From positions 1 through 46,183 of the forward strand of contig CANFQA010000019.1 in the NCBI GenBank assembly GCA_947449015.1: a DNA stretch of 46,183 bases. The letters are read 5' to 3'. The number at the start of each line of letters is the position of its first letter. Position 1 is the first letter of the stretch. This DNA comes from Microthrixaceae bacterium (GTDB lineage Bacteria > Actinomycetota > Acidimicrobiia > Acidimicrobiales > Acidimicrobilacustridaceae). Of the stretch, positions 16,694-37,986 are shown in pieces. The notes beneath the pieces are model-generated. The model was not told the DNA's origin and ran no database searches. It saw only the letters and a program-made list of their open reading frames with translations. The position numbers and the translations under genes are program-made.

Positions 16694-16710
16694 GGTTAAC
16701 ATCGTTAAGT
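16694..16710. promoter_or_regulatory. Putative shared operator, site 1 (P450 operon)
   Basis: Core TTAAC-ATC-GTTAA at 16696-16708, 68 bases before the amidohydrolase ATG. It is a near-perfect inverted repeat and matches four other promoter sites in this window (24241, 27552, 33300, 37972). Confidence 0.7.
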
Positions 16711-16776
16711 CGGCGGGGGTTCCGGCATCACCCGCGGGTAGTTCTGGGCGGGTGAACGATCTCTAGGAGAGGGTCG

Positions 16777-18108
16777 ATGTCGCCAGCTGAACAGGTGCTC
16801 CTCACCGGCGGATCGGTGATCGACGGAACCGGCGCTGTTGTTCGCCCGAGTACCGATGTCCTGTTCGAGGTTGATCGCATCGTTGCTGTCGGCCCGCAGG
16901 CCACCGTTTCGGCTGCCCCTAGCGCCACAATCGTCGATGTCACGGGCTGCACGGTGATGCCGGGCCTGATCGACTCCCATTGTCACATCACCTTCGGCGA
17001 ACCAGCCAGCAACGATGAGTTGTTCTTCCATCGGCCGCAGTCCACGGCGATGCTCGTGGCTGCTTTCAACGTCCAGAAGCTACTTCTTGCCGGTGTCACC
17101 GGATTCCTCGATGCCGACTGCATCTTCGATCTGGGTCCGGCTCTGCGCGACGGGATCGAAGCCGGCATCGTTGAGGGACCGCGCATGGTTTCGGGACTGA
17201 ACGCCCTTCTTACTGCGGCCGGTGGCACAGCGGGTCGGTTGATCCCCGACGCCGGGCATCTCGGATACGCCCACGTCATGGGTAGCCGCGACGAAATAGT
17301 TCGCACCACACGCCAGCAGATCAAGTACGGCGCCGACTGGATCAAGATCCATGTCACAGGTTCAGTGCCGAACTCGAATGGCGAACTCACGGTGTGGTCG
17401 CTCGACGAACTGCGTGCTGTCACCGACACCGCACACGCGCTCGGAACGCCGGCGATCGCGCACTGTCGTAGCGCCGAATCCACCCGACTCGCTGCGCTCG
17501 CTGGCGTCGATCTCATCCTTCATGCGTCATTTCTCGATGACGCGGCGGTTGAGGCTGTGGTCGAAGCCGGCTGTGCCGTTGCTCCGACATTCACGTTTCT
17601 GGCAAATCTCGCCGATCATGGTCACCGGGTCGGTTCATCCACCGCTCAGGTCGATCTGTTCCGCGGTGAGATCGAAGCCACGGCGGCCATGCTGCGTGTT
17701 GCGTTCGATGCGGGCGTGCCCATTTTGTGTGGATCCGAGAGTGGATTCGCTCTCACTCCCTATGGGCACTGGCATGCGAGAGAGATGGAGTTGTTGGTCG
17801 ATGCGATGGGTCTCACGCCGCTCGAAGCAATTTCCTGCGCCACGCGAAATGGGGCCATAGCCCTGCGTCGACCGCTCGACTCCATCGGGGTCATCGCCCC
17901 TGACGCCGTCGCTGATCTCCTCGTGGTTGAAGGCGACCCGTCCAGTGATGTCACCCTGCTCGGCGATCGTCGCCGATTCCGACATGTGTTCTCCCGAGGT
18001 CGTGCTGTCGACCTGGATCGTCCATGGCCCGAGCGCCAACCGCTTGCCGGCGAGAAGGTCGGGCAATGGGCGACGCAACCGCTTACCTGGGACATGGTCA
18101 ATCCATGA
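16777..18108 (+). CDS. Amidohydrolase (imidazolonepropionase-like), first gene of the P450 operon
   Basis: A 443-residue metal-dependent TIM-barrel hydrolase. HCH at residues 68-70, the Lys ligand K190 (DWIKIHV), H229 (AIAHC) and H249 (LILHAS) are in place. Where most relatives have GTDSG with a catalytic Asp, this protein has GSESG (residues 319-323), so E321 occupies that position. The family cleaves amides, lactams or ring C-N/C-O bonds. ATG 16777 has AGGAGAGGG before it. It begins a run of five genes with four-base stop/start overlaps plus one closely spaced gene, and a copy of the shared palindrome lies upstream. Confidence 0.85.
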   Translation: MSPAEQVLLTGGSVIDGTGAVVRPSTDVLFEVDRIVAVGPQATVSAAPSATIVDVTGCTVMPGLIDSHCHITFGEPASNDELFFHRPQSTAMLVAAFNVQKLLLAGVTGFLDADCIFDLGPALRDGIEAGIVEGPRMVSGLNALLTAAGGTAGRLIPDAGHLGYAHVMGSRDEIVRTTRQQIKYGADWIKIHVTGSVPNSNGELTVWSLDELRAVTDTAHALGTPAIAHCRSAESTRLAALAGVDLILHASFLDDAAVEAVVEAGCAVAPTFTFLANLADHGHRVGSSTAQVDLFRGEIEATAAMLRVAFDAGVPILCGSESGFALTPYGHWHAREMELLVDAMGLTPLEAISCATRNGAIALRRPLDSIGVIAPDAVADLLVVEGDPSSDVTLLGDRRRFRHVFSRGRAVDLDRPWPERQPLAGEKVGQWATQPLTWDMVNP

Positions 18109-18929
18109 ATTCGCGTTCGGTCATTGTTACCGGTGCGGGAAACGGGTTGGGTGCCGAGATAGCCCGTTTCGCGAGTGAGGCCGGGTGGATCGTTGGTGTT
18201 CTTGATCGCGATCTTGATGCAGCATCGCGTGTCGCCGCATCGCTCGGGGAGGACGCAATTGCCCTCGAAGCCGACATCACCAACGAGGTAGATATTGAGG
18301 CCGCGTTCGACGAGTTTGCGGCGCGCAGCGGTCGTCCGGCGCCCGACGGCATCGTGTGTAACGCCGGCATCGTCCGATTCGGTCCGCTTCTGGATCTCGA
18401 AGCGAGCGACTGGCGATCGGTGGTTGATGTCAATCTCACCGGCACGTTCCTCACGGCCCGCGCCTACGCCCGCTGTGTGATCGGCGCCAAGCAGTCTGGA
18501 GCGATCGTCACTGTCACCTCGATGAATGGGGTGGCTGCCGGACCCAACGCTGGCGCCTACGGCGCCACGAAGGCTGGCATCGCGCGGCTCACCACACAGA
18601 TGGCGCTCGAATGGGGCCCCCTCGGCATTCGGGCGAATGCCGTTGCCCCCGGACTCATCGATGCCGGCATGTCAGAGCCCATCTACGCCGATCCCGAAAT
18701 TCGTCGGTTGCGCTCTGAACGAGTGCCCGTGGGTCGACTCGGAACCGGTGCCGATGTTGCATCAGTGGTTCTGTTCCTGCTCTCCGATGACGCGGCCTAT
18801 GTCAATGGCACAGAGCTTCTGGTCGACGGCGGCGTCACCGGTTCGGTGATCAGCACGCTGCCGCGCCCGCAGTCAGTCGATTCGGTGGGGTTGGGTGAGC
18901 AACCACCCCGAACCGGCGGCGGGCGATGA
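18105..18929 (+). CDS. Short-chain dehydrogenase/reductase (classical SDR)
   Basis: A 274-residue NAD(P)-dependent oxidoreductase. It has TGAGNGLG at the N-terminus, NAG in the fourth strand, catalytic Ser in VTSMNG and YGATK (YxxxK), plus LLVDGG near the end. An Asp after beta-2 (VLDRD) suggests NAD preference. The C-terminal 25 residues after the SDR fold are Pro-rich and extra. ATG 18105 overlaps the amidohydrolase stop (ATGA). In context it probably oxidises an alcohol made by the P450 of the same operon (inference). Confidence 0.92.
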   Translation: MNSRSVIVTGAGNGLGAEIARFASEAGWIVGVLDRDLDAASRVAASLGEDAIALEADITNEVDIEAAFDEFAARSGRPAPDGIVCNAGIVRFGPLLDLEASDWRSVVDVNLTGTFLTARAYARCVIGAKQSGAIVTVTSMNGVAAGPNAGAYGATKAGIARLTTQMALEWGPLGIRANAVAPGLIDAGMSEPIYADPEIRRLRSERVPVGRLGTGADVASVVLFLLSDDAAYVNGTELLVDGGVTGSVISTLPRPQSVDSVGLGEQPPRTGGGR

Positions 18930-19672
18930 CGCGGAATCTGCTTCTCATCGGTGGTCCCGGGCATGAGTTTGATGACATTGCTGAGGCGCTGGATGGACTG
19001 TTCGTCTCGGTCGGGATCGAGACGACGGTGGTCACCCATCCTGACGACATGATGGACAAGCTCAGGTCCGGTGACGACGACTACGACCTACTCACTGTGC
19101 ACGCGCTTCATTGGGGCATGGACGCAGAGCGCTACGCGCATCTTCGCGAGGATCACGCCTACTTCCTGAGCAGGGTTGATGCTGGAGGGATTCGTGATTT
19201 TGTCGAGCGTGGGGGCGGACTGCTCGCGCTGCATACGGCGGTGATCTGTTTCGATGCTGAACCGATCTGGCACGAACTGTGCGGTGCGGCTTGGCACTGG
19301 GAGCGATCCACTCATCCTGAAGTTGCCAAGTCCGAGGTTGTAATCACGGAGCAGGGGCGGGCTCATCCAATCACCGCTGGCGTCGAGGACTTCACGATTG
19401 TCGACGAGGTCTATGGGTTCCTCGATGAGAGTGCAGATCTGGAGCCACTTCTCGTCGGTTCGCATGGCGGGCGCACCCATCCGCTGCTCTGGGCCCGCAG
19501 TCAGGGATCAGGTCGTGTCGTTACCGATCTACTCGGCCATGAGGTCAGGTCGATCGACCACCCGGTGCATGGGTCGATCCTCCAGCAAGCAGCGGTCTGG
19601 GCCGCTGGAGGACGCGCCAACGCCGTCGGAACCAGCGGGAACAATCGAACCATCGGGAAGGCAGAAGGATGA
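18926..19672 (+). CDS. ThuA-like domain protein
   Basis: A 248-residue protein of the ThuA (trehalose utilisation)/glutamine-amidotransferase-like fold. Signature segments are FVERGGGLLALHTAVICF, a central HP.I..G.EDF region, DEVYGF, and LWARSQGSGRVVTDLLGH near the end. Members often accompany secondary-metabolite and sugar-derivative degradation genes but have no settled reaction. Overlaps both neighbours by ATGA, so it is an integral part of the operon rather than a passenger. Confidence 0.8.
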   Translation: MTRNLLLIGGPGHEFDDIAEALDGLFVSVGIETTVVTHPDDMMDKLRSGDDDYDLLTVHALHWGMDAERYAHLREDHAYFLSRVDAGGIRDFVERGGGLLALHTAVICFDAEPIWHELCGAAWHWERSTHPEVAKSEVVITEQGRAHPITAGVEDFTIVDEVYGFLDESADLEPLLVGSHGGRTHPLLWARSQGSGRVVTDLLGHEVRSIDHPVHGSILQQAAVWAAGGRANAVGTSGNNRTIGKAEG

Positions 19673-20880
19673 CCGAACCTACCGAGGTGACGATCTCCAC
19701 CTATGAGGAGGCACGAGAGGCCTTCCGGCAGAAGCACCTGCGTCAGGCGCTCTACGACGCCGGAGATGTGGTCATGGCCGATGTACTCGTCAATTTGCAT
19801 GGAGATGAACATCGGGCGCGTCGCCGTCTCGAGAACCGGCTCTTCCGACGAGACTCACAGATGCTCTATGAGCGGGAACTCTTTCCACCGATCGTGGCCG
19901 AGACACTGGCTCCGCATATTGCAGCAGGTGGCGCAGAACTCGTGACACTCAGTCACCAGATGATGATGAATCTGGCGGCGTTCACCTCGGGTGTTGACCG
20001 TCCTCTGGGAACGCCGGAGGAAACCTTTCGGCTCTACTCGTATCTGATGCTGTTCATCGAGGGGGCCACGCTGGCGCACTACACCGGCGACCGCGAGGCC
20101 AAACGGGCTGAGGTCGCTGCAGCACTTGCAGCGTTCGATGTCGAATTCCTCCAGCCCTCAATTCGTCGGCGTGAGGACGCGATTGCTCGGTGTGAAAGTG
20201 AGGAGATCGGCGAGGACGAACTACCGCGCGATGTGCTGACTGTCTTGCTGCGCAACCGTGATGACCTTGAGCTTCCCGATGAGGTGGTGCTGCGCGAGAC
20301 CTGCTTCTATCTGCTCGCCGGCGCGCATACTTCGGCGACGGCTTTCGTGCGCACGCTCGATGTCCTCTTCGAGATGGCGATCACCTCCCCCGAAGATGCC
20401 GAGCGGGCCCGCCATGACATGGGTTTCCTCCAGCGCTGCGTGCACGAGACCATCCGACTCCAGCCTTCGAGTCCGGTGGCGATGAGGTGGGCACTCGAGG
20501 AGATCGAACTCTCGGGGGGACGGCGGATCGCTTCCGGCGACAAAGTCGTGATTGACCTCATGTCCGCCAATCGAGATACCGCTGCCTTTGGGGAAAGTGC
20601 CGATCTGCACGATCCCCATCGGCAACTGGCGGCCGGCGTTGCACCCTGGGGTCTCAGCTTCGGACTCGGAATGCATGCCTGCATCGGGCAGGAACTCGCC
20701 GCGGGAACGGATGCGATCGGCGATGTCGATGTGCAGGATCAGCTCTACGGGCTTGTGCCCGTGGCAGTGCAGGCTGTGCTCGCCGCTGGCATTCATCCCG
20801 ATCCTGCTGACCCCGCCCGACGCGATCCGGCATCGGAACGTGGGTACTGGGCGAAGTATCCGGTGGTGTTCGGCAGGTGA
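19669..20880 (+). CDS. Cytochrome P450
   Basis: A 403-residue soluble haem monooxygenase. The I-helix oxygen-binding motif AGAHT is at 217-221, the K-helix E260-x-x-R263 in HETIRLQP, and the haem-binding loop FGLGMHACIG ends with C338. Length is typical of bacterial class I P450s. No ferredoxin or ferredoxin reductase gene is visible nearby, so electron donors must come from elsewhere in the genome. Overlaps the ThuA-like gene (ATGA) and the ligase gene (GTGA). The family assignment is firm, the subfamily is not. Confidence 0.95.
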   Translation: MTEPTEVTISTYEEAREAFRQKHLRQALYDAGDVVMADVLVNLHGDEHRARRRLENRLFRRDSQMLYERELFPPIVAETLAPHIAAGGAELVTLSHQMMMNLAAFTSGVDRPLGTPEETFRLYSYLMLFIEGATLAHYTGDREAKRAEVAAALAAFDVEFLQPSIRRREDAIARCESEEIGEDELPRDVLTVLLRNRDDLELPDEVVLRETCFYLLAGAHTSATAFVRTLDVLFEMAITSPEDAERARHDMGFLQRCVHETIRLQPSSPVAMRWALEEIELSGGRRIASGDKVVIDLMSANRDTAAFGESADLHDPHRQLAAGVAPWGLSFGLGMHACIGQELAAGTDAIGDVDVQDQLYGLVPVAVQAVLAAGIHPDPADPARRDPASERGYWAKYPVVFGR

Positions 20881-22781
20881 CGCAGCCGGTGTGGTTTCCT
20901 GACGCCGCGACAAAGGAAAGGTCGCGAACTGCAGCGTTCATGGCCGTGTACGACATCGAGGACTACCCGTCCCTGGTCGACCGATCGATCCGTGAACCAG
21001 AGTGGTTCTGGGATGCCGTCATTGATTTTCTGGGGATCGGTTTCCAACGCCGTTACTCCCGTGTCGCCGATGACAGCGATGGAATGGCCTGGACACGATG
21101 GTTCGACGATGGCGCCGTCAATCTCTCGGCGGTCTGTCTCGATCGCTGGGCTGATGATCCTGCCCATGCACACCGGGTGGCACTTCTTGGCGAACATGAG
21201 GACGGAAGCGTGGTGGAGTCCACCTTCGCCGAGCTGCGCGATGAAGTTTCCCGGCTCGCCGGTGCATTGGCCCAGCGCGGTGTGCGGCCCGGTGATCGGG
21301 TCGCATTGCTGCTCGGTCTTGATGATGCCGTGCGAGTGTTCCTTGCCATTGCTCGACTTGGTGCCGTTGCGGTGCCGATCTTCTCGGGCTTCGGTGCGGG
21401 CGCAGTGCAGGTTCGTCTGGTTGATGGCGGGTGCACGGTTCTGGTCACGACTCCGACCACGACGCGACGGGGTCGCCAGGTGGCAGTACGAGCGGTTGCT
21501 GATCAGGCAGCGGCGGAGGCCCGTGAGCTCGGTGTCAACTGCGAGGTGGTTGATGTCGATGAGCTGCGCTCGAGTCAAGCTGCACCGGTTGATCCGGTCA
21601 TCACTCCCGCCGAGACACCTGTGTTGCTCGCGTACACCTCCGGCACCACCGGCCGCCCGAAGGGTGCGGTGCATGTTCACGGTGGGCTGACCGTGAAACT
21701 GGCGCAGGAGGGCGCGTTCCAAGCCGACCTGCGCCCGGGGGATCGGGCCTGTTGGTTGACCGATATGGGCTGGATCATGGGTCCGTGGATCATGGTTGCC
21801 GCATTGGCCAACGGCGCCACGCTGGTCACCTACGACGGAGCGCCGGACTGGCCCGATGCCGGCCGGGTGTGGTCACTAGTGGAACGGCACGCACTCACGT
21901 TTCTCGGAGTGTCTCCGACGCTCATTCGTGCGCTCGCCGGTGCGGGTGATCACTATCTCGAGGGCGCCCAGCTTGATTCGTTGATCGCGTTCGGATCCAC
22001 GGGTGAACCCTGGAACGCAGCGGAATGGTGGTGGCTGTTCGACACCGTAGGTGGCGGCTCGCGTCCCATCATCAACATCTCGGGCGGCACCGAGATCGGC
22101 GCATGTCTGCTGTCGGTGAACCTTCTGCAGGGCTGCGTTCCGTGTTCGGTGGGTGGACCGGCGCTCGGGGTCGCCGTCGATGTCGTCGATGATGCTGGCC
22201 AATCGCTGCGGGGGACAGGTGACGTGGGAGAACTCGTGGTTCGCAGTGCATGGCCCGGGATGACCCGCGGTGTCTGGGGTGACAACACTCGTTATCTCGA
22301 GACCTATTGGTCGCGATACCCGGGTATCTGGTGGCATGGCGACTGGGCGGAGGTTGACGACGACGGGTTCTGGTTCTTGCATGGCCGAAGCGATGACACT
22401 CTGAACATCGCTGGCAAGCGGATCGGCCCGGCTGAGATTGAATCCGCTGCCACTGCGGTTGATGGTGTCGTGATGGCTGCTGCTGTTGGACTTCCTCATC
22501 CGGTGAAGGGTGAGGTCATCGGCCTGTGGTGTGTCGCCGCCACGCAGACCATTCACCATGACGAACTTGCGAGACTCATTGTGTCATCGGTGGAAGCGAC
22601 CTTCGGTCCGGCGTTCCGTCCAGCGCATCTCGTCTTCGTGTCGGCTCTGCCGCAGACCCGTTCGGGCAAGATCGTGCGCAGAGCGGTACGCGCTCGTGCC
22701 ATTGGTGTGGATGCCGGTGATCTCTCGACCCTGGAGGATCCTGCGGCCCTTGACGCCATCGTTGCGGTGACCTTCGAATGA
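20877..22781 (+). CDS. Acetyl-CoA-synthetase-like acyl-CoA ligase
   Basis: A 634-residue ANL-superfamily ligase of the acetyl/propionyl/acetoacetyl-CoA synthetase branch, judged by the WFWDAVIDFL N-terminal segment and length. Adenylation motifs: AYTSGTTGRPKG, SGGTEIG, KRIGPAEIE and the catalytic Lys in TRSGKIVRR. It should activate a carboxylic acid to its CoA ester through an acyl-AMP. Start is GTG 20877 overlapping the P450 stop. In this operon it may activate an acid product rather than acetate (inference). Confidence 0.92.
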   Translation: MTQPVWFPDAATKERSRTAAFMAVYDIEDYPSLVDRSIREPEWFWDAVIDFLGIGFQRRYSRVADDSDGMAWTRWFDDGAVNLSAVCLDRWADDPAHAHRVALLGEHEDGSVVESTFAELRDEVSRLAGALAQRGVRPGDRVALLLGLDDAVRVFLAIARLGAVAVPIFSGFGAGAVQVRLVDGGCTVLVTTPTTTRRGRQVAVRAVADQAAAEARELGVNCEVVDVDELRSSQAAPVDPVITPAETPVLLAYTSGTTGRPKGAVHVHGGLTVKLAQEGAFQADLRPGDRACWLTDMGWIMGPWIMVAALANGATLVTYDGAPDWPDAGRVWSLVERHALTFLGVSPTLIRALAGAGDHYLEGAQLDSLIAFGSTGEPWNAAEWWWLFDTVGGGSRPIINISGGTEIGACLLSVNLLQGCVPCSVGGPALGVAVDVVDDAGQSLRGTGDVGELVVRSAWPGMTRGVWGDNTRYLETYWSRYPGIWWHGDWAEVDDDGFWFLHGRSDDTLNIAGKRIGPAEIESAATAVDGVVMAAAVGLPHPVKGEVIGLWCVAATQTIHHDELARLIVSSVEATFGPAFRPAHLVFVSALPQTRSGKIVRRAVRARAIGVDAGDLSTLEDPAALDAIVAVTFE

Positions 22782-22791
22782 GGAGAGTTCG

Positions 22792-23796
22792 ATGATCGAT
22801 ATCCATGCCCATGTCGTGTTGGAATCCGTGCTCGGCGCAGCCGGTGAACTCGGCCCCGAACTCGACGACGGCGATGCGGCCACCGGTCGGCCCTCGTGTT
22901 TCCGGGTGGGGAGCTACAACCTCATCGGAGTTCGCTATCGCGGGAGTGCATTCATGGACCTCGATCTGCGGATCGAAGCGATGGACGCCGCCGGCATTGA
23001 CCTGCAGGTTCTTTCACCCAATCCACTCACGTACTTCTCTCATGTCGATGCTGAATGGGCCGACCGGTTCTGTCGTCGCCACAACGATGAACTCGCCTCG
23101 CTGGTCGCCGGTGCTCCTGATCGCGTGAGGGGTTTCGCACAAGTACCGATGCAGGATCCGACGCGGGCATGTGCCGAGCTGGTTCGGTCGGTTCGAGAAC
23201 TCGGGTTGGTGGCTCCGTACCTCGGCACCGATCTCGGCCGCCCACTCGACGATCCTTCCTTTGACGAGTTCTGGGCGACATGTGTGGAGCTCGACGTTCC
23301 GGTGTTCTTCCACCCAGCGCCTGATGGCATCGATCGTCCTCGCCGGGACGAACGACTGGAGCGCTTCGATGGTGATTTGTGGCTCGGATTCCTCTACGAG
23401 GAGAGCATTGCGGTGACGTCGCTGGTGTTGGGCGGTGTGCTCGATCGGCACCCCGCGCTTGATGTGTGTGTCAGTCACGGTGGCGGCGCCACGTCATGGC
23501 TGGCCGAACGTATGGAGCACGCAGCGCGCACTCGCCCATGGGGAACCGAAGCGCTGGCTGAACCCGGTGCGGTCGAGCAGCGACTCCGGAGGATCTGGTG
23601 GGATGCCCATGTCGGCGGACCGCGTGCGCTGGCAGCACTTCTTGCGGCGTTCGGGTCAGAGCGACTGGTTGCCGGCACCAACATGGCGGGTTGGGATCAG
23701 TCTCGTGATCCCTCCTGGGGCGATGCCGCACTTGTTTCGATCATGGATGCCAATGCTCGACGGCTCCTGCGACTGGATCGCTCTGGTCGTCTCTAA
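22792..23796 (+). CDS. ACMSD-type amidohydrolase/decarboxylase
   Basis: A 334-residue member of amidohydrolase family 2, related to aminocarboxymuconate semialdehyde decarboxylase and vanillate-type nonoxidative decarboxylases. Metal ligands H5 and H7 (DIHAHV), His in VFFHPAP and His in VSHGGGATSW are present. The usual C-terminal GTDYP Asp is replaced: the sequence reads GTNMAGWD, so either Asn stands in or the later Asp serves. ATG 22792 has AGGAG before it, ten bases after the ligase stop. Last gene of the operon. Confidence 0.85.
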   Translation: MIDIHAHVVLESVLGAAGELGPELDDGDAATGRPSCFRVGSYNLIGVRYRGSAFMDLDLRIEAMDAAGIDLQVLSPNPLTYFSHVDAEWADRFCRRHNDELASLVAGAPDRVRGFAQVPMQDPTRACAELVRSVRELGLVAPYLGTDLGRPLDDPSFDEFWATCVELDVPVFFHPAPDGIDRPRRDERLERFDGDLWLGFLYEESIAVTSLVLGGVLDRHPALDVCVSHGGGATSWLAERMEHAARTRPWGTEALAEPGAVEQRLRRIWWDAHVGGPRALAALLAAFGSERLVAGTNMAGWDQSRDPSWGDAALVSIMDANARRLLRLDRSGRL

Positions 23797-23816
23797 GGTC
23801 GACGACGAACGCGGCT

Positions 23817-24238: not shown

Positions 24239-24255
24239 GGTGAACACCGTTAACC
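24239..24255. promoter_or_regulatory. Putative shared operator, site 2 (first carotenoid oxygenase)
   Basis: GG-TGAAC-ACC-GTTAA-CC, core 24241-24253, the most symmetric of the five copies, 36 bases before ATG 24290. Confidence 0.72.
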
Positions 24256-24289: not shown

Positions 24290-26011
24290 ATGCCGACGCC
24301 GCGCAGTCTGACCACGGCACCGCACGCCGATTTCGAACTCGAGGTGGTGTCGGGCACCTGGCCCGCTGATATCAGTGGTGAGATGGTGCTCTCGAGCCCC
24401 CAGCACTGCACACCAATGGAGTACGGGATCTTCGAATGGGGCGCCACTTGTCGTCTGGCTCTCGAACCGGGCACTCGAGGCGCATCCGCCGGTCGGTTCG
24501 CCTGGCAGTCGCGCTCGATCCAATCCCCTGGCAAACGACTCTGGGATCGACTGCCGGATCAGTTCACCACCAGCGGTACTGGGTATCAGTCGGTGCTTGG
24601 TCCGGCGAACGCCTCCAACACCGCGCCGCTGCCCTGGGGCGGACGGTTGTTCACCACATGGGACGCCGGTCGCCCCATCGAGATCCATCCCGGGACGCTC
24701 GAGTTCGTTGCTGAGGTCGGCCATCGTGACAGTTGGGGCGGTAACTCGCTCTCGATGCCGGGCGTGATGCCCTTCCTGCTCTCGTCGGCTCATCCCGTTG
24801 TTGATCCCGATCGCGACTGCATGTGGAGCGTGAAGCTCGACTTCGTGTTCGAGCCCAGCTTCGGCATGCGACCCGCAGTGGTGCGTTACGACGCCGCCGA
24901 CGGCACGCAGGTGCGCTACTGGCCGCTCGATGGCGTGGTCTTCGGTGGATCGACGCATACGGTCAGTCAGACCCGCGACTGGCTGATCCTCGCCGATTCC
25001 GGCAACTTCAAACCTGATCCGGCCGAGATGTTCGGTGGAGAGCGCGAACTCACCATCGATGACGAGGTGCCGGTGTGGCTCATTCGTAAGGATCAGCTCG
25101 AGGGACTTCCCACTGGTTCTCCGGTGGCCCCCGTCACCATCATGATGTCGCCACCGACGGGTCATTTCTACGGGCGCTGGGACGACTCCGATGGCATTTC
25201 GGTCGTCTGGGAGGGCATGGACCTCATGGACCTCGCGCTGTACCTCAAGCCCGGTGATCTCGACGTGAACGGCAACCCCATCGATCCCGCCGCAGTTGGT
25301 CTCTACAACATGGCGATGGCTCCCGAGAGCATCGTCGAGGTCCTGTTCGATCCCACGACCGGCCGAGCTATCGAGCGCGGCGTGTATCGCGAGGAATGGA
25401 ACTTCAATCTTCAACTCTCGGCGATGGACTGGTCCACCGAGGGGATGTCGAAACCCACGCTCCATCATGTGACCTACCAGGGCTGCCGGCCGGGCAACAT
25501 CTCACAACGGGCGGCGAGGCTCTATGAGGGACGTATCGATCTCGATCAACTTCGTGAGGAAACACCCGGTTCACTGGCCACCTTCGAGCGCGGTTCGATG
25601 GCGTTGAAGGCGCGCTGGGAGTACTCCGATCTCAGCGATCACATCACCTCGCCCACGTTCGCCCCGCGTGACTGCGGCACGAACGCCGCGCACAGCGCCT
25701 ATGCCGGTGGAGAACCCGGGGGCCACGATGGCTATGTGGTGCTGCCGGTGCTGTCCGATGATGGTTTCCGCGTTGAGTTGTTCGACGCCGCCGCCATCGG
25801 CAGCGGCCCGATAGCGGTGCTCAAGGGAACGAACCGGGAATGCGTGCCACTGCTGCTGCATTCCGCATGGATGCCGGCCTATGACGACCTGGTCGATGCC
25901 GAACGGCTCCGGTTCTCCGATGAACTTTCCGATGAGGTCATGGCCAGTGTGCCCGAGGAGCTCCATGGCGCCATCCGGGATGTGGCCCGCGAATGCGACG
26001 AGCTGTTCTGA
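24290..26011 (+). CDS. Carotenoid/stilbene cleavage oxygenase family protein, long form
   Basis: A 573-residue member of the carotenoid oxygenase (RPE65/CCD/lignostilbene dioxygenase) family, non-haem iron enzymes that cleave C=C bonds of carotenoids, apocarotenoids or stilbenoids. Candidate iron-binding His residues are H168 (SSAHPVVD), H223 (STHTVSQT), H292 (TGHFYGRW) and H524 (LLLHSAWMP). It is about 90 residues longer than the second copy and only distantly similar to it. ATG 24290 follows AGGAGGGG; the preceding 11 codons are probably not translated. It has its own promoter and operator site 2. Confidence 0.85.
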   Translation: MPTPRSLTTAPHADFELEVVSGTWPADISGEMVLSSPQHCTPMEYGIFEWGATCRLALEPGTRGASAGRFAWQSRSIQSPGKRLWDRLPDQFTTSGTGYQSVLGPANASNTAPLPWGGRLFTTWDAGRPIEIHPGTLEFVAEVGHRDSWGGNSLSMPGVMPFLLSSAHPVVDPDRDCMWSVKLDFVFEPSFGMRPAVVRYDAADGTQVRYWPLDGVVFGGSTHTVSQTRDWLILADSGNFKPDPAEMFGGERELTIDDEVPVWLIRKDQLEGLPTGSPVAPVTIMMSPPTGHFYGRWDDSDGISVVWEGMDLMDLALYLKPGDLDVNGNPIDPAAVGLYNMAMAPESIVEVLFDPTTGRAIERGVYREEWNFNLQLSAMDWSTEGMSKPTLHHVTYQGCRPGNISQRAARLYEGRIDLDQLREETPGSLATFERGSMALKARWEYSDLSDHITSPTFAPRDCGTNAAHSAYAGGEPGGHDGYVVLPVLSDDGFRVELFDAAAIGSGPIAVLKGTNRECVPLLLHSAWMPAYDDLVDAERLRFSDELSDEVMASVPEELHGAIRDVARECDELF

Positions 26012-29114: not shown

Positions 29115-29874
29115 CGGCATGCTCCCCCGGTGCGGGTGGGCGACCGAGATACGCCGCGATCACCTTTGGATTGCGACGGACCTGATCGGGTGCACCGCTG
29201 GCCACGACCTTGCCGAAGTCGAGGACATGCACGGTGTCGCACACGTTCATGATGAGCGACATGTCGTGATCGACGACCAGCACGCTGGTTCCGATCGATG
29301 GCAGCTTGCGCAGAGTGGCAGCGAGTTCTGCGGTTTCGGTGGGATCGAGTCCGGCGGCGGGCTCATCGAGAAGGACAAGACGCGGCGAGGAGGCCAGCGC
29401 CCGTCCGAGGGCCACCATATGGCGTTGACCGTTGGACAATTCGGTGGGGAGTCGGTCGGCCACGGACCACAGGTCGAGGAGATCGAGCACGCGATGCGCG
29501 TGCGAGAGGTCGTGGGACTTCGGCCAGAGCGCATCGGTGATCGTGGCCCACAGCGAAGGTGACTGTGTGCTGACGGCGAGATTGTCGAGCACGGTCATGT
29601 CATCGAACAGTTCGAGCGACTGGAATGTGCGCACGAGACCAGCGCGCGATCGCTGATGGCCCGCAGCGCGCGTGATGTCGTGACCATCGAAGGTGATCTG
29701 CCCATTGGTCGCTCTGGTGAAGCCGGTGACGGTGTCGATGAACGTGGTCTTGCCGGCGCCGTTGGGTCCGATCAGACCGACGATCTGTCCCTCATCGACG
29801 CGGAGTCGCACGCCATCGAGGGCCAGCAGTACGCCGTGTTTCACGCTGAGATTGTCGACGTCGAGGAGACTCAT
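29104..29874 (-). CDS. livG: Branched-chain-amino-acid-type ABC transporter ATPase
   Basis: A 256-residue ATPase paired with LivF. Walker A GPNGAGKTT, LVRTFQSLELF (LivG-type Q loop) and Walker B LVLLDEPAAGLDP are present. The ABC signature reads LSNGQRHMVAL, with Asn in place of the first Gly of LSGGQ, a mild departure. Overlaps the permease gene by four bases. Drives uptake of whatever the lipoprotein encoded upstream binds. Confidence 0.93.
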   Translation of the reverse strand: MSLLDVDNLSVKHGVLLALDGVRLRVDEGQIVGLIGPNGAGKTTFIDTVTGFTRATNGQITFDGHDITRAAGHQRSRAGLVRTFQSLELFDDMTVLDNLAVSTQSPSLWATITDALWPKSHDLSHAHRVLDLLDLWSVADRLPTELSNGQRHMVALGRALASSPRLVLLDEPAAGLDPTETAELAATLRKLPSIGTSVLVVDHDMSLIMNVCDTVHVLDFGKVVASGAPDQVRRNPKVIAAYLGRPPAPGEHADER

Positions 29875-31895
29875 GCTTCACCATCTGCGCTGAGCACTAC
29901 AGCCGCGGGCGTGAGGTCCATGGCCGGCGTGGGTCCAGGAGTTGACCGTGTGAAGCGTGACCGCACGAGCCCGGTGATGCCTTCGGGCACCCAGATGGCG
30001 GCGATGATGAGCGCCAGACCGCTGATGGCGAAGACCGATTTCGAGGAGTCCGAACCGCTGGTTTCGTTGATGGTGGTGACGAGGATCCCGGATTGGGCAA
30101 GCACGCCGGCCAGCAGCGCTCCGCCGATGCTCGAGACGCCCGCGAGGTAGGTCATGGCCACAGCCACGAGTGAGCCGATGACGACGAAGGAGGTGGGCGA
30201 GAGCGTGGTGACCGAGAACGCCATGAGTACACCGCAGAGCCCTGCGAGGAACGATGACACGGCGAATGCCCCGAGCTTGGCCCGGGTGACATCGATGCCG
30301 GCCGCCGCCGCAGCGCGTTCGTTGGCCCGCACCGCGAGCCAACGCAGACCGTTTCGGTTGCGTCGGAGGTTGGCCACGGCAAGGCAGGCAACGGTGAGGA
30401 TGGCCAGACAGAGGAACCCGAACGCTGGTCGGAAATTGTCGTCACCCGTGGCGCCGATACCAACATCGATGCCGAAGAAGTACGGACGCGGCGCCGCTGA
30501 TCCAGCTTGCCCGTTGGAGAGAGCGGTGCTGGCGAGCACGAGTCCTTCGATGGCCACGGCCAACGCGAGTGTGGCGATGGCCAGGCTCATGCCGCGCACC
30601 CTGGTTGCGGGCCAGCCGACGAGCACGCCGATGCCGGTGGCGATCAGCGACGCCAGCACGAGAGCGATGGGGAACGGAACATGGTGCTCGGTGAGTCGGA
30701 TGGCTGCGAAGCCCGCGACGCCGGCGAAGGCCAACTGCGCGAGCGAGATCTGTCCGCTGTAGCCGGTGAGCACCACGACCGACAGCGCGAGCAGTGCGAA
30801 CACCATCGACACGATGAGTGCATGGCGGTACCCGGCTCCGACGGTGACGAGGGCGACTGACACGATGCCGATGAGCAGAATCGTCCACATCAGGACATGG
30901 CGCGGACGCGGCGAGGGTGGAAGTCGTCGCGAGGCGATTGCCGAACGATCTGGCAGTGCATCGCCGTTACGGATCAGCACCACGATGATCACGATGGCCG
31001 GAAGAAGTTGTTGGAGACCGGTGGTGGGGAGCCAGTCGGGGATGAGATGGGTCTCAGGTCGCACCGCCCACCCGAGCAGGAGTGATTGCGCCATGCCGAT
31101 GGCGAGTCCGGCGATCGTTGCCAGTGCGAACGAGTGGAGGCTGGCGATCATTGCGGCGGCCAGTGCGGGAATGACGAGCAGTGAGGTCGTGGGACTCAAC
31201 CCGGCGATGGGTTCAATGAGGATGACCGCAAGTCCGGCGAGCACCGAGGCAATGGCCCAGCACACACCGGCAAGTCGGTCCGGGGCGATGCCGAGCAGCA
31301 GGGCGCCCTTCTCATTGCCCTCCGCTGCACGGGTGGCGAGTCCGAACCGGGTGAAGCGGAACAATGCAGTGAGCGCGGCGGCCACCAGAATCGCGAATGC
31401 CGCGAGGATCAGTCGGTTCTCGGTGACCGCTGTGCCGAAGATCCGAACAGCCGAGTCGGGCAACACCGAGCGATGGGCCACGACCGCAGCACCGCTCACG
31501 GGGAATCGCAGACGCACGATCTCTTGGAGATAGAGCATGAGTCCGAGGGCGGCCACAACACGGGCCAGCGCCGAGGAGCGACGCAATGGTCGGAACACCA
31601 ACAGATGCACCAGTACCCCGAGCAATGCGCCGAGGATGACTGCGAACACCAGCGCGGTGAACAACGTAGGTCGCGGCATCAGATGCACTCGTGCCGGCAG
31701 ACCGATGATCGGCAGCACCCAGTCGCCGGTTTCGCGGAACTCGAAGTAGGCGAACGCCACGTACACACCCATGGCAGCGTGCGCGAAGTTCACGACCCCC
31801 GATGAGCGATGGGTCAGGATCAGGCCGAGGGCGAGCGAGGCGATGACCGCCCCACCGCCGAGTCCGGCGAGCAGATATCCGATGTAGGTGCTGAT
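29871..31895 (-). CDS. Fused LivH-LivM permease, apparent ATC start
   Basis: One reading frame encodes both permease halves of a branched-chain-amino-acid-type importer: a LivH-like half (about residues 1-315) and a LivM-like half (about 330-650), 674 residues if started at ATC 31895, with many hydrophobic segments. The first membrane helix (STYIGYLLAGLGGGAVIAS, then LALGLILTHRSSGVVNFAHA) is clearly LivH, yet between the upstream in-frame stop and GTG 31793 there is no ATG, GTG or TTG. GTG 31793 falls after that helix. ATC 31895 sits five bases after GGAGG, so it is the best start; an assembly error or CTG start are alternatives. Confidence 0.85.
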   Translation of the reverse strand: MSTYIGYLLAGLGGGAVIASLALGLILTHRSSGVVNFAHAAMGVYVAFAYFEFRETGDWVLPIIGLPARVHLMPRPTLFTALVFAVILGALLGVLVHLLVFRPLRRSSALARVVAALGLMLYLQEIVRLRFPVSGAAVVAHRSVLPDSAVRIFGTAVTENRLILAAFAILVAAALTALFRFTRFGLATRAAEGNEKGALLLGIAPDRLAGVCWAIASVLAGLAVILIEPIAGLSPTTSLLVIPALAAAMIASLHSFALATIAGLAIGMAQSLLLGWAVRPETHLIPDWLPTTGLQQLLPAIVIIVVLIRNGDALPDRSAIASRRLPPSPRPRHVLMWTILLIGIVSVALVTVGAGYRHALIVSMVFALLALSVVVLTGYSGQISLAQLAFAGVAGFAAIRLTEHHVPFPIALVLASLIATGIGVLVGWPATRVRGMSLAIATLALAVAIEGLVLASTALSNGQAGSAAPRPYFFGIDVGIGATGDDNFRPAFGFLCLAILTVACLAVANLRRNRNGLRWLAVRANERAAAAAGIDVTRAKLGAFAVSSFLAGLCGVLMAFSVTTLSPTSFVVIGSLVAVAMTYLAGVSSIGGALLAGVLAQSGILVTTINETSGSDSSKSVFAISGLALIIAAIWVPEGITGLVRSRFTRSTPGPTPAMDLTPAAVVLSADGEA

Positions 31896-31917: not shown

Positions 31918-33228
31918 TCAGCCCTTGTAAATCGCGCCGACGTCGATCCAGTCGGTGATCTGGCTCAGTTTGCGGTTGTCGATCTGGGCGAGGATCTGCT
32001 GCGGGGAGCACACGGCGGGAAGACCCACGAACTGCTTGTGGTTGCAGGTGTAGGGATGTCCGGCGAAGCTCGGAGCGTCGACGGTTGCTTCAAGGGCGGC
32101 GGTGATTGATGCGGGAGTGATATCGCCGTTGATCTGATTGAGGATCGCATAGAGGTTCATGAGCGCTCGGAAGGTCACCGTGCCGGCACCCACAGGGTCG
32201 AGGCCGTTGCCGTACTTGTTGATCACGCCGGAATAGAGCAGGTTGTCGCCAACCGGTGGCTCGCCAATGATCGGACCTTCGACGTTGAAGTAGGCACCGT
32301 TGGTCTTCGTGGCGTCGACCTGATTGATGATCCCGGGGGCAGCGCATGCGCCGACGTAGAACGAAGCGACTTTGATGCCGAGAGCAGAGATGCCGTCGAA
32401 GCCACCCTTACAACCGGTATCGGCGGCCATGAGGAAGATTGCATCGGGAGTGCTTGACGCCGCAGCATTGATGGCTGGGCTGAGATCAGTGGACATCACC
32501 GGATACGGGACCATCTGCACCGAGACGCCCTTGTCCTCGAGGACCTTCTTGCCCATCTCCGCTCCCGCCGCGATTGAACCGAACTCGCCATAGACGATGG
32601 AGACCTTCTTGGCATGCAGGTTCTCGGACGCGTACCAAGCAAAGGCAACTGCGGCCGCCTGGCTGCCACCGCTCCATTGGAACGAGTTGGGGGAACTGAA
32701 CGACTGCGTACTCACCGGGATACCACCGACATAGGGGATCTTGTTATCGGCGAGGGTGTCGATCCCGTTCCCGAAGACGTCGATGCCGCCGAGCACGGCG
32801 GGGAACTTCTGCTGCACGAACTTCTGGGCGCAGTTGGTCGATCCCTCGGCGGAAAACTCCGTGTTGCAGACCTCAAGGGTGAGCGGTCGGCCCTTCACGC
32901 CGCCCATCTCCTTGTTGATGAACTCGATACCGGCCTTCACAGCCAGGCTCAGTTCGGGGAACGAACCCGCGACAGTGTTGTCCTGGTTGATCATGCCGAG
33001 GTTGATCGGCTCGCCGGTGGCCACGGTGGGCTTGTCGGGTGTGTACGGGGCGAGCACGGACTGCCGGGCGCAGTCGAGCAGCGCAGTGGCCTCGCAACTC
33101 TTGGCGAGTGTGGTCGACGAACTGTCCTGGCTGGTGCTCTCGCTGCACGCGGCAACGGACAGGATCATGACGGCGGCGGTGACGACCGCCGCCACCGTTG
33201 ACAAGGTGCGGCTCATGCTGCGGCTCAT
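31918..33228 (-). CDS. ABC transporter substrate-binding lipoprotein (HAAT family)
   Basis: A 436-residue periplasmic-binding-fold lipoprotein. Residues 1-27 are a signal peptide ending LSVAAC with lipidated C28, followed by a Ser/Thr linker. The mature part has the LivJ/type-1 periplasmic fold and several extra Cys that could form disulfides (CEATALLDC, CNTEFS, TGCKGG, YTCNHK, AVCSP). Such proteins in soil and freshwater actinobacteria bind amino acids, amides or aromatic acids. ATG 33228 has GGGGGAAG before it; the longer frame upstream is Arg/Gly-rich and rejected. First gene of the importer operon; operator site 4 lies 71 bases upstream. Confidence 0.9.
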   Translation of the reverse strand: MSRSMSRTLSTVAAVVTAAVMILSVAACSESTSQDSSSTTLAKSCEATALLDCARQSVLAPYTPDKPTVATGEPINLGMINQDNTVAGSFPELSLAVKAGIEFINKEMGGVKGRPLTLEVCNTEFSAEGSTNCAQKFVQQKFPAVLGGIDVFGNGIDTLADNKIPYVGGIPVSTQSFSSPNSFQWSGGSQAAAVAFAWYASENLHAKKVSIVYGEFGSIAAGAEMGKKVLEDKGVSVQMVPYPVMSTDLSPAINAAASSTPDAIFLMAADTGCKGGFDGISALGIKVASFYVGACAAPGIINQVDATKTNGAYFNVEGPIIGEPPVGDNLLYSGVINKYGNGLDPVGAGTVTFRALMNLYAILNQINGDITPASITAALEATVDAPSFAGHPYTCNHKQFVGLPAVCSPQQILAQIDNRKLSQITDWIDVGAIYKG

Positions 33229-33297: not shown

Positions 33298-33314
33298 ACC
33301 TAACACTGTTTACC
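33298..33314. promoter_or_regulatory. Putative shared operator, site 4 (importer operon)
   Basis: Core CTAAC-ACT-GTTTA at 33300-33312 followed by CC, in the 179-base gap between the TetR gene and the binding-protein gene. Confidence 0.68.
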
Positions 33315-33407: not shown

Positions 33408-34010
33408 TCAGCCCCGATACCCGTAACCAGCGAGCAGACGATCGGTCATCTCATTGATCATCGCGTCTTCGAACTCCGTCGGAAGGTCGAAGCCCAGTTG
33501 CAGCACCGTGGCCACACCGTGAGCGCCGCTCCAGAGCATGAGCGCGACCATCTGGGGATCATCGGCCACGATGCTGCCGGCGGCGATGGCGTCCTCGATA
33601 GCACCGGAGGCGGTGGAGAAGGCCATCGTCGTGGAGGGAGCCACCGATTCGGCCGGTAGCCCTGAATCGGGCAGTGCCGGCGGGGCGAGCAACATCACCT
33701 GGAACAGCTCGGGATTCTCGCGGGCATAGGTGATGTAGGCACGGCTGTGGGCCCGGATGCGATCGATCGGGTCGGCATCATCGACGTCAGTGAATCGGGA
33801 CGCGAGACGCTCTATCTCGGCCTCGGCGATGGCGCTGAGCAGATCCTGTTTGCTGTGGACGTAGCCGTAGAGCGCCGGTGCGGTGACGCCAAGTTGCCTG
33901 GCGAGACGCCGCAGCGACAACGCCTCGAGTCCACCGGCCACGATCATCTCGCGGGCCGCGTCGATGATCGCTCGGCGTTGAAGTGCGGGACGATCAGCGG
34001 GGGAGGCCAC
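33408..34010 (-). CDS. TetR-family transcriptional regulator
   Basis: A 200-residue regulator with an N-terminal helix-turn-helix (residues 12-56: AIIDAAREMI through LSLRRLARQLGVTAPALYGYVHSKQDLL) and a TetR_C/WHG-type ligand domain. Start is GTG 34010. It lies directly upstream of, and in the same direction as, the importer operon, and is divergent from the acyl-CoA ligase. It is the only regulator gene inside the island and therefore the first candidate to bind the shared palindrome (inference); its own upstream gap has no evident copy of that site. Confidence 0.92.
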   Translation of the reverse strand: MASPADRPALQRRAIIDAAREMIVAGGLEALSLRRLARQLGVTAPALYGYVHSKQDLLSAIAEAEIERLASRFTDVDDADPIDRIRAHSRAYITYARENPELFQVMLLAPPALPDSGLPAESVAPSTTMAFSTASGAIEDAIAAGSIVADDPQMVALMLWSGAHGVATVLQLGFDLPTEFEDAMINEMTDRLLAGYGYRG

Positions 34011-35794: not shown

Positions 35795-36661
35795 TTACCA
35801 GTCGACCTTGGGGTTCGGTGGGAAGAGGTCAGCGCGTTGTGCAGCAAGCGTTTCGCAGTTCAGGCCGGCATCGACCCGCTGCCAGATCGCCGGATTCCGC
35901 GAGGTGTCGTCGATCTGCTTCCACTGGCCGGCGGCCATGAAGATCGGATCGCTCGCACCGACCACCAACTGCTCCGAGTTGTCAGTGACGAATCCGGTGA
36001 ACCGGTCATCGGTCTGCTGGGTGAGGGTGTAGGCGAAGATCTCGCGGCGGGCGATGTACACCTCACCTTTGAGTGTGTCGCTGATCTTCACTGTCGAGGT
36101 CACGCCGGGGTGGCCGTCGCCGTCGGCGTCGAAGATGCGTGGATCATTCGTATCGGTGGGCAGTACTTCATTGGCCGGATCGGCGAGCTTGATCCCGATT
36201 GCGGTCGGAGTGGCGGGGCGCACGATGTGGAACTTGCCGTCGACCTTGGTGACCTCGACCGGCGTGGCGATGGGCTTGATCGCCTGCGTGGCCGCATCGG
36301 AGATCGAAACCTCGAGCTTCTGATCGGTCGGGGTGTCGGCATGACAGAAGGTCATCTGGTTCCACATCTGCCCGTCACGGATCGAGAGATCGGAGAATCC
36401 GGTGCTGATGATGAGGGTCTTCATCGTCGGGTCCTGATAGGCGACGACATCGAAGTGGGCGTAACGCCCGACCAGTTGGTCGGCCCCGGCCGGCAGCGTG
36501 TCGGAAGCCGAGGAACTGCTCGACCCGCAGCCGCCGAGCGCGAGCACGCTCATGCTCGCGAGGAGAAGCGCCGTTGCGCCGAGTGTGCGTGACCGGCGAC
36601 GACGTGGTGTGTGTGCCAGTGACGTAAATGGAGGCGATGTCGCTGCGGTGGCGTTGTTCAT
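35795..36661 (-). CDS. Putative lipoprotein of unknown function in the Rieske operon
   Basis: A 288-residue secreted protein I do not recognise. An Arg-rich n-region (RRRRSR) precedes a hydrophobic stretch ending LALGGC (lipobox) and a Ser-rich linker. The mature part includes DPRIFDADGDGHPGV, an EF-hand-like Asp-rich loop that may bind Ca, followed by beta-rich sequence ending DLFPPNPKVDW. ATG 36661 follows GGAG; an ATG overlapping the Rieske stop (36682) is an alternative. It is the next gene after the Rieske oxygenase on the same strand and so probably shares its mRNA. Confidence 0.7.
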   Translation of the reverse strand: MNNATAATSPPFTSLAHTPRRRRSRTLGATALLLASMSVLALGGCGSSSSSASDTLPAGADQLVGRYAHFDVVAYQDPTMKTLIISTGFSDLSIRDGQMWNQMTFCHADTPTDQKLEVSISDAATQAIKPIATPVEVTKVDGKFHIVRPATPTAIGIKLADPANEVLPTDTNDPRIFDADGDGHPGVTSTVKISDTLKGEVYIARREIFAYTLTQQTDDRFTGFVTDNSEQLVVGASDPIFMAAGQWKQIDDTSRNPAIWQRVDAGLNCETLAAQRADLFPPNPKVDW

Positions 36662-36681
36662 GGCTGACTCCGTTCGTGACA

Positions 36682-37896
36682 TCACGCGGGCTCGACGAAT
36701 CGGTCGAGGGCGTCGGAGACAGCAGTACCGGACGGCAGACGCTCAGATCCGATAGCGAGATCGACAGCCCGTTGGAAATGGTGGATCAGTCGCTCATGCC
36801 AACCGATCTGGAACGGACGAGCACCCGGCGAGGAGATCGAGGCCTGGATCGGTGCCATGTTGGCGGTGTCCTGGGCCATGACTGTGTCGAACAGGGCTAG
36901 TCGTTCGAGATGTTCCCGGGGCACTTCATCACCGGCCCACGCCGGCGCGTACCAGCGCAGTTCGAGATCAGTCGTGGTGTCGCTCGTGGGCCACATGCAC
37001 AGGAACGTGAATGCGCCGGTGTCCATGGGCACGACCAGGTTGGGGAAGATGCCGTACGAGGTTGATGTCTGGCGCCACAGCAGTGGAACCGCTGGGTTGT
37101 CGTTCTCCTCGGACACGAGCGGCATATCGCGGAACATGTCGTGCTTCTCGACCGAGAGTCGGCTGTGGCCGTTGGGCAGCATCGAAACGGTGACCGACTG
37201 GTCGTTGTAGAGCAGCGCTGCGTTATCGGGATGCACCGTGCGCACGTGGTACACCTCGAGGAACGCGTCGACCATGAGTTTCCAGTTGCATTCGAGGTGG
37301 TGCACCTGCGTGCCCACGGCTCGCATGGCTCGACCATTGATCTCGCTCATCTGGTCGGCGAGTGGACCGAGAAACTCCACCAGCGGTTGTGCGTCGAGGT
37401 CCTCGTTGATGAACACCCAGCCGTCCCACACCTCACAGCGCACCGGCACGAGCGCGAGGGCGTCCTTGTCGAGTTCGGTGAAGCTGCGCGAATCGGGAAC
37501 GGCACGCAGACTGCCGTCGAGTCCGTAGGACCAGGAGTGGTACTGGCAGGTGAGACGTCGGGCAGTACCGCATTCATCGCGAGTGACCGGGGCGCCTCGA
37601 TGGCGACAGGAGTTGTAGAACGCGCGCAGTACGTCATCCTCGCCGCGCACCACCACGATGGCCGCGCCTGATCGGGTCATCTGGCGATAGGCGCCGGGCT
37701 CGGCCCATTCCGATTCATGGCCGACGAACAGCCAGGTGCGCGCGAACAACCGCTCCTTTTCAAGTTCGTAGAAGGCCGGGTCGGTGTAGCGCTCAGTGGG
37801 AATGAGCGGCACCACAACAGCTTCGGCTGGCGGTGCAGTGCGCGCCTTCTCCGTCTCGATACGTTCCCTGATGGTGGATTCGAGCGTTGCGTCCAT
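36682..37896 (-). CDS. Rieske ring-hydroxylating oxygenase, large subunit
   Basis: A 404-residue non-haem iron oxygenase. The Rieske [2Fe-2S] cluster ligands are C97-x-H99 (CRHRG) and C117-x-x-H120 (CQYHSW). The catalytic domain has the bridging Asp and facial ligands in NWKLMVDAFLEVYHVRTVH (N204, D210, H217, H222) and a downstream AQDTANM Asp. No small subunit, ferredoxin or reductase gene is adjacent, as in single-component-type alpha3 Rieske enzymes that borrow reductases. ATG 37896. Operator site 5 is 76 bases upstream. Confidence 0.93.
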   Translation of the reverse strand: MDATLESTIRERIETEKARTAPPAEAVVVPLIPTERYTDPAFYELEKERLFARTWLFVGHESEWAEPGAYRQMTRSGAAIVVVRGEDDVLRAFYNSCRHRGAPVTRDECGTARRLTCQYHSWSYGLDGSLRAVPDSRSFTELDKDALALVPVRCEVWDGWVFINEDLDAQPLVEFLGPLADQMSEINGRAMRAVGTQVHHLECNWKLMVDAFLEVYHVRTVHPDNAALLYNDQSVTVSMLPNGHSRLSVEKHDMFRDMPLVSEENDNPAVPLLWRQTSTSYGIFPNLVVPMDTGAFTFLCMWPTSDTTTDLELRWYAPAWAGDEVPREHLERLALFDTVMAQDTANMAPIQASISSPGARPFQIGWHERLIHHFQRAVDLAIGSERLPSGTAVSDALDRFVEPA

Positions 37897-37969
37897 GGTC
37901 CCCCTCGACCCGGTTCACGGGTCGGATCCGTGTGAAGCGGGGGATCACCCGATCAGTGCCACCCCAACG

Positions 37970-37986
37970 ACTGAACACCGTAAACC
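37970..37986. promoter_or_regulatory. Putative shared operator, site 5 (Rieske oxygenase)
   Basis: Core TGAAC-ACC-GTAAA at 37972-37984 followed by CC. Its left half plus spacer (TGAACACC) is identical to site 2. It lies in the 187-base gap between the Rieske gene and the divergent MurC-like gene. Confidence 0.7.

Follow-up and report, generated by a model that had tools for sequence, protein, structure and literature searches.

Two regulators of the TetR family provide the closest described parallels to the system discussed here. KstR controls cholesterol catabolism in mycobacteria through the operator TnnAACnnGTTnnA, a palindrome with AAC/GTT half-sites and a 2-base spacer that stands before many dispersed catabolic genes (PMC1995591). 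For BioQ, which acts on biotin genes in Actinobacteria, the operator TGAAC-N3-GTTCA has been predicted (PMC3398298). The present analysis concerns a 17-bp palindrome, approximately GGTKAACRNYGTTMACC, that occurs five times in a stretch of 46,183 nucleotides (called the window below) of contig CANFQA010000019.1 from a Microthrixaceae bacterium of the class Acidimicrobiia. As judged from sequence comparison, it is very probable that a repressor of the TetR family uses the five palindromes as operators and thereby controls a regulon for import plus oxidation; the protein encoded at 33408-34010 is the most likely candidate. No description of this regulon or of its operator letters was recognised in the open-licence literature searched.

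The window sites share with KstR both the half-sites and the placement before dispersed catabolic genes, whereas the spacer is 3 bases in all five sites and 2 in KstR. The window TetR reaches 33.6 bits against NCBIfam model NF033703, for which the cut-off is 280. KstR, which a first-pass annotation of the window had already considered improbable because of the spacer, was rejected on these two grounds, and no sterol gene set was recognised in the cluster. The BioQ architecture is closer, with its core AAC-N3-GTT agreeing in half-site and spacer; the window targets, however, are oxygenases and an importer. The exact word TGAAC-N3-GTTCA is present at none of the five sites on either strand, the outer bases being variable.

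When written with the CC flank on the right, all five sites fit the palindrome in one orientation and align without gaps. Operators 2, 4 and 5 already read this way on the plus strand (GGTGAACACCGTTAACC, ACCTAACACTGTTTACC and ACTGAACACCGTAAACC), and operators 1 and 3, which are GGTTAACATCGTTAAGT and GGTTAACAGCGTTCAGT on the plus strand, become ACTTAACGATGTTAACC and ACTGAACGCTGTTAACC. The sequence confirms the positions given by the first-pass annotation (Table 1) and the left half TGAACACC common to sites 2 and 5. The next start codon lies 34-73 nt from the edge of the 17-mer (66 nt between operator 1 and AmHyd1); measured from the 13-base core, the distance becomes about 36-75 nt, in line with the 36-76 bases reported earlier. 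Behind the sites stand the genes for AmHyd1, RPE65a, RPE65b with the divergent SDR2, the importer binding protein and the Rieske oxygenase (Pfam is the source of the gene names; AmHyd1, RPE65a and similar labels were chosen here). With a matrix built from the five sites, no further position in the window scores 12 or more.

Specificity was examined across the genome, 2.38 Mb in 86 contigs. The consensus first proposed, TNAAC-N3-GTNNA, fits four of the five sites and fails at site 4, which begins CTAAC; it also has 190 genome matches (89 + 101, with 43 + 52 for the reversed-pattern control). With that many, it would not have passed the refutation criterion set out in the first-pass annotation. 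The sites do stand out with the refined pattern TKAACNNYGTWMACC, which gives five matches at four places, all inside the window, where about 0.5 matches are expected from base composition; the reversed pattern gives none. Site 4 is not matched by this pattern either. Perfect TGAAC-N3-GTTCA words that lack the CC flank occur elsewhere in the genome, for example at C1:44361. Because the refined pattern was fitted to the window sites, other genomes were relied on as the real test.

Close orthologues of the TetR protein (88-100% identity) are present in three of the 21 genomes of the genus, namely the window's own, G007 and G018, and 17 others have distant matches only. The same three genomes, and only these, contain at least three matches to the refined pattern (5, 3 and 4). 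The other 18 have none (12 genomes) or one (six genomes), and each of these six single matches falls within an open reading frame (ORF) or in a hairpin between converging ORFs. G018 has the cluster in syntenic order, G007 in pieces. Sites 1, 3, 4 and 5 are retained in all three genomes with drifting flanking bases; site 2 is changed to the weaker GGTGAACGCCGTTCAGC in G018, and the G007 contig does not cover it. The sites are thus conserved upstream of orthologous genes in two sister species. The two named close relatives of the TetR protein, 95% and 87% identical, come from metagenome-assembled genomes (MAGs) titled Actinomycetota and Microthrixaceae. As a separate observation, a conserved hairpin that mimics the operator lies between converging ORFs in sister species (L037, L038, L040 and L041; TTGCTGATGAACGGTGTTCACCAGCAA in L041); a terminator, or a hairpin element of some other kind, is the probable explanation.

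The association of regulator and motif extends through the class. Of the 395 class genomes, 96 contain a TetR relative at E<=1e-12, and in 26 the score is at least 98 bits; at most eight candidates per genome were scored. The 31 TetR loci analysed comprise 30 regions around the better class relatives and L055, from an alphaproteobacterial MAG. A matrix built solely from the five window sites reaches the threshold of 16 in 18 of the 31 loci, and the resampled-sequence control yields one such match in 537 kb. Every one of the 16 loci that have an RPE65-family gene carries a match; put the other way, the gene is present in 16 of the 18 loci with a match and in none of the 13 without. RPE65a, RPE65b and the importer (binding protein-permease-ATPase) recur as neighbours, and the TetR match of nine of the 31 loci is preceded by a site at a distance of no more than 100 bp. 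Near relatives that are not independent (G035/G075, G202/G367, G265/G385 and G114/G246/G308) are inside the counts given here.

The converse search, starting from RPE65a, leads to the same association. RPE65a matches, with at most three candidates per genome scored, were obtained in 18 of the 395 genomes, or 17 without the marginal G275, and TetR, counted at 98 bits or more, is also present in 16 of these 17. A site of at least 16 is found in 19 of 22 RPE65a upstream regions outside the window. With column-permuted palindromic matrices the mean is 0.04 and the maximum 6, none of 300 reaching 19, and none of 109 coding windows reaches the threshold. For five of the 23 RPE65a genes (the 22 and the window's), the region upstream of a preceding TetR gene was used, the two being taken as one operon. 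Three marginal genes, L251, L258 and L259 (29-32% identity), are not counted among the 22; upstream of the first no score exceeds 10, and the best scores of the other two are 15.1 and 17.9. The earlier suspicion that the protein at 33408-34010 is the regulator is supported by its co-occurrence with the motif across genus and class.

The same operator is found in another phylum. The L055 TetR is 40% identical to that of the window, and relatives of the L055 protein (E<=1e-25) are present in four of 337 genomes of its class, its own included, the other three being 38-45% identical. All four loci have two or more sites of at least 16.9; counted at the threshold of 16, there are two in L055, four in L264, four in L265 and two in L266. 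A search of the whole L055 genome modelled on its own sites gave three matches, one of them perfect and two with a single mismatch, and the cluster sites are two of these three. Together the four loci encode a CoA ligase, an alpha/beta hydrolase, TetR, a P450, an enoyl-CoA hydratase, luciferase-like and PaaA-like proteins, an SDR and an MFS transporter; an RPE65-family gene was not found in any of them. For 24 weaker TetR relatives, four from the window's class and 20 from other classes of its phylum, the flanks examined (no more than 1.5 kb per side) contain neither the motif nor an RPE65 gene. Together, these loci suggest that the operator is tied more closely to the regulator than to the enzymes. 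Taken with the refined genome scan and the sites upstream of orthologues and homologues, the second phylum supports the original proposal of one regulator and one catabolic regulon.

Two further observations concern more distant genes. TetR relatives of about 30% identity at L125:7357-10237 and L224:1500 have the same operator near a gene that, from its sequence, we take to encode an MMPL-type membrane protein; they are perhaps a sister regulon. In G343, a site (L230:1500) precedes an ORF resembling a luciferase-like monooxygenase, an identity that we assume from its letters, and the alphaproteobacterial cluster also has a luciferase-like gene.

The operator can also serve to find genes. Twenty genomes scanned with the pattern alone gave 68 places, against 30 for the reversed pattern. 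From the 68, 20 stretches were chosen by eye on their letters, and in 16 of these the site accompanies a homologue of a window gene (38-83% identity), often on a contig other than that of TetR. In L147 and L154, the site is at RPE65a facing Rieske-AmHyd1-SDR-ThuA-P450, and in L157 RPE65a faces the Rieske gene. Sites are found at importers in L151, L153, L156, L160 and L165, at RPE65b relatives in L148-L150, L155, L158 and L161, and at both RPE65b and RPE65a in L164; in L163, RPE65a, RPE65b and the Rieske gene each have a separate site. The chosen sites of L152, L159, L162 and L166 have no window homologue. None of a second set of 12 stretches, mostly weaker, is at a window homologue.

Base preferences were compiled from 74 oriented site-gene pairs. 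The pairs were chosen by the matrix, so the counts are descriptive, and they include SDR2 rows, for which the query was one base out of frame; SDR2 rows of the homologue searches are not relied on. Bases 6-7 (AC) and 11-12 (GT) are invariant, A stands at position 5 in 66 pairs and T at position 13 in 67, and the majority letters are GGTGAACAGTGTTAACC. Close pairs of sites (no more than 100 bp apart) are rare, with eight among the loci examined. Six of them are exactly 14 bp apart, so that the palindromes have three bases in common, and these six come from both phyla. Such a pair looks like a composite operator that would accommodate two dimers.

We infer that a TetR dimer would bind the 17-bp palindrome, in which the core AAC-N3-GTT hardly varies, close to the promoters of the importer, both RPE65-family oxygenases, the SDR, the Rieske oxygenase and a presumed six-gene P450 operon, and would thereby keep the regulon off. 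A small molecule at the C-terminal domain, probably the imported substrate or a CoA-activated product of it, would release the protein from DNA, and the dispersed operators would let import, cleavage, hydroxylation and CoA activation rise together. By its domains the protein is a member of the TetR family: it matches PF00440 (46.3 bits) and PF13305 (49.3 bits) above both cut-offs, and its model is all-helical, with Foldseek matches mostly to TetR-family structures. The fold search retrieves generic TetR structures, the best being an RHA1 protein of unassigned function. Autoregulation is implied in the nine relatives' loci with a site just before tetR, and not in the window's genus.

Several findings count against a repressor regulon of this kind. 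Many TetR repressors have an operator before their own gene, and in the window's genus tetR has none in front. The 13 TetR loci without a match of at least 16 lack one over the whole of their 3-20 kb stretches; some of their genomes have sites elsewhere, but a search with the strict pattern found nothing in G054, G119 and G357, and G030 has a single weak match with no window homologue beside it. The motif-bearing TetRs do not form one clade in the TetR tree (7 changes, with 16.1 for shuffled labels), which was built after a crude stop-codon filter had kept 15 of 24 rows from the phylum search. Three of the 22 RPE65a regions are misses (L237, L244 and L257, scoring 14.6, -3.7 and -1.9), and in G095, where no TetR was detected, RPE65a nevertheless has a good site. 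In the pattern-only scan, the loose pattern is only modestly enriched overall, and the reversed pattern has more places in G397, G062 and G271. Two of the four homologue-less chosen sites score as high as 24.1 and 21.9; other genes may be involved there, or some strong sites may be unrelated. Finally, a scan of 16600-28000 for sigma-70-type promoters found none.

This last result bears on an alternative that we consider unlikely, namely that the regulator is an activator or that the sites activate at some promoters. In its favour, the scanned part contains no consensus promoter; the family precedent, however, is one of TetR-type repressors (PMC1995591, PMC3920632). Overlap of half-sites with promoter elements in relatives also speaks against activation, weakly. 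In six relatives, the left half-site can be read as a -35 element with TANNNT 16-17 bp on, which fits eight of the 74 pairs (shifted controls 0-20), and in two relatives the right half-site is TAAACT behind TTGACC, which fits six of the 74.

The sites might, instead, be true operators of one regulator, with another genome-encoded factor and not the neighbouring TetR binding them. The window's TetR without its own operator and the G095 site would suit such a factor, as would six TetR genomes in which sites occur at a distance from TetR while its own surroundings have none of at least 16. This alternative is nevertheless quite improbable, given that the same three genus genomes have both the close TetR and the sites, and that the TetR-motif association is class-wide and holds in all four alphaproteobacterial loci, where TetR is shared and the enzymes are largely different.

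That the sites are biotin operators of the BioQ type is very improbable. Half-site and spacer are those of the predicted BioQ site (PMC3398298), yet all five window sites stand before catabolic or import genes, no biotin gene was recognised there, and bioB, the one biotin gene located, is on another contig (C32), where 3.9 kb around it contain no site (best score 9.8). BioQ was rejected on these target genes. No BioQ model is among the NCBIfam matches listed for the window TetR. PDB chains 5yej and 5yek, which appear among the search results, are taken to be BioQ. That the palindromes are structural (terminators or RNA hairpins) or chance repeats is hardly credible: hairpins with TTGCTG...CAGCAA-like flanks are indeed seen in sister species, but between converging ORFs, and terminators were rejected. 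The window sites, in contrast, precede start codons, and their scores greatly exceed those of resampled sequence, coding windows and permuted matrices, the ground on which a chance repeat was rejected.

A probable repressor regulon under TetR is retained, and its genes and sites are collected in Table 1.

Table 1. Operators and genes of the proposed regulon (window positions), with double operators of other loci (pLDDT, predicted local distance difference test)
Feature	Position	Strand	Basis and remarks
Operator 1	16694..16710	-	Precedes AmHyd1-SDR-ThuA-P450-CoA ligase-AmHyd2; kept, with changes, in 3/3 aligned genomes
AmHyd1, amidohydrolase (Amidohydro_1), first gene of putative operon 1	16777..18108	+	Pfam; 86-93% identity in G018, G007
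SDR oxidoreductase	18024..18929	+	Pfam; true start probably downstream of ORF start
ThuA-like protein	18926..19672	+	Pfam
Cytochrome P450	19669..20880	+	Pfam; PDB sequence search
Acetyl-CoA-synthetase-like CoA ligase	20877..22781	+	Pfam; listed NCBIfam models all below cut-off
Amidohydro_2 protein (AmHyd2)	22792..23796	+	Pfam; closest solved relatives ACMSD decarboxylases (PDB sequence search)
Operator 2, before RPE65a	24239..24255	+	Weaker copy in G018; G007 not covered
RPE65a, divergent RPE65/carotenoid-oxygenase-family enzyme	24290..26011	+	Pfam
RPE65b, carotenoid-oxygenase-family enzyme	26078..27499	-	Pfam; best solved match carotenoid 9,10-dioxygenase
Operator 3, between divergent RPE65b and SDR2	27550..27566	-	Kept in 3/3 genomes
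SDR2, divergent from RPE65b	27627..28373	+	Pfam; ORF 27498-28373, start chosen by eye
LivF-like ABC ATPase, branched-chain-amino-acid type importer	28380..29120	-	Pfam
LivG-like ABC ATPase	29104..29874	-	Pfam
Importer permease, two BPD_transp_2 stretches in single ORF	29871..31793	-	Pfam
Importer substrate-binding protein (Peripla_BP_6)	31918..33228	-	Pfam; start set by comparison with relatives
Operator 4, before importer genes	33298..33314	+	17-mer identical in 3/3 genomes
TetR-family regulator (TetR_N + TetR_C_33), proposed repressor	33408..34010	-	Pfam; co-occurrence with motif; model pLDDT 89
Putative lipoprotein behind Rieske gene	35795..36685	-	Aligned with homologues from five further regulon loci
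Rieske oxygenase alpha subunit	36682..37896	-	Pfam; closest solved relative carnitine monooxygenase (PDB sequence search)
Operator 5, before Rieske gene; Mur-ligase-like gene on opposite side	37970..37986	+	15-mer TGAACACCGTAAACC identical in 3/3
Double operators, 14 bp apart	L147:6805, L154:6668, L224:1500, L232:1486, L264:1660, L265:11581		Both phyla

CoA activation had been counted among the functions of the regulon from the start. This holds for the ligase behind site 1 and not for a second CoA ligase (ORF 33983-35734), before which there is no operator. The second ligase is divergent from tetR and operator-less in the genus, and its alphaproteobacterial homologue, the 42% identical CoA ligase of L055, adjoins an operator. 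The putative lipoprotein has LALGGCGSSS near its start, and homologues of 45-84% identity lie beside Rieske, RPE65a or RPE65b genes in the five other loci; it has no Pfam match, no PDB match below E 0.2 and a structure model with a mean pLDDT of 69. For the importer binding protein, solved structures gave nothing at E<=1e-8.

The substrate is best approached through the two oxygenases. Both match the RPE65/carotenoid oxygenase family model PF03055, RPE65a with 68.3 and RPE65b with 416.6 bits, and four His columns (168, 223, 292 and 524 in RPE65a), presumably the iron ligands, are invariant in all 14 aligned sequences, RPE65b included. RPE65a has no PDB match at E<=0.001. The solved structures closest to RPE65b are a carotenoid 9,10-dioxygenase (252 bits), a 9-cis-epoxycarotenoid dioxygenase (199) and 5j53 (198), the last of which we take to be NOV1. 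Its best NCBIfam model is NF052295, an 8'-apo-carotenoid 13,14-cleaving dioxygenase (presumably mycobacterial), although the 294 bits are below the cut-off of 675. In Mtb, Rv0653c is presumably a TetR gene with a CCO gene next to it. RPE65-family oxygenases are also known from bacterial catabolism in the lignostilbene dioxygenase pathways of Sphingobium SYK-6 and Novosphingobium (PMC12997858), where Tyr-101 and Lys-134 hold the phenol (PMC8191317). In pairwise alignment, Phe-59, Tyr-101 and Lys-134 of the lignostilbene dioxygenase correspond to Phe-68, Leu-110 and Trp-147 of RPE65b, and RPE65a has Trp at the Lys column. Lignostilbene-type chemistry is disfavoured because Tyr-101 and Lys-134 are absent. 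The favoured, though still doubtful, candidate is a non-phenolic polyene or terpenoid, because RPE65b best matches carotenoid dioxygenases and the phenol-holding residues are Leu and Trp.

Acidimicrobiia are reported to be abundant in aquatic habitats and hardly cultivated (PMC5962788), and their carbon sources are therefore mostly guessed. Through the conserved operator, scattered genes without an assigned role (for two oxygenases, a Rieske oxygenase, an importer, a lipoprotein and the P450 operon) become parts of a single candidate pathway under a single inducer, so that a ligand screen on one small protein, TetR, could name the substrate. The pattern-only scans showed that the operator can also be used as a key to find more pathway genes where a genome lacks annotation. 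The set is probably a new regulon of a known kind, TetR and its operator, whose control circuit is now testable. Tentatively, it might represent a transferable catabolic switch, in which one TetR lineage and a 17-bp operator (sometimes a 31-bp double) govern import-and-oxidation sets that differ between Acidimicrobiia and Alphaproteobacteria; for the former it might then be the first dedicated regulon for uptake and oxidation of environmental apocarotenoid-like or other non-phenolic polyenes or terpenoids.

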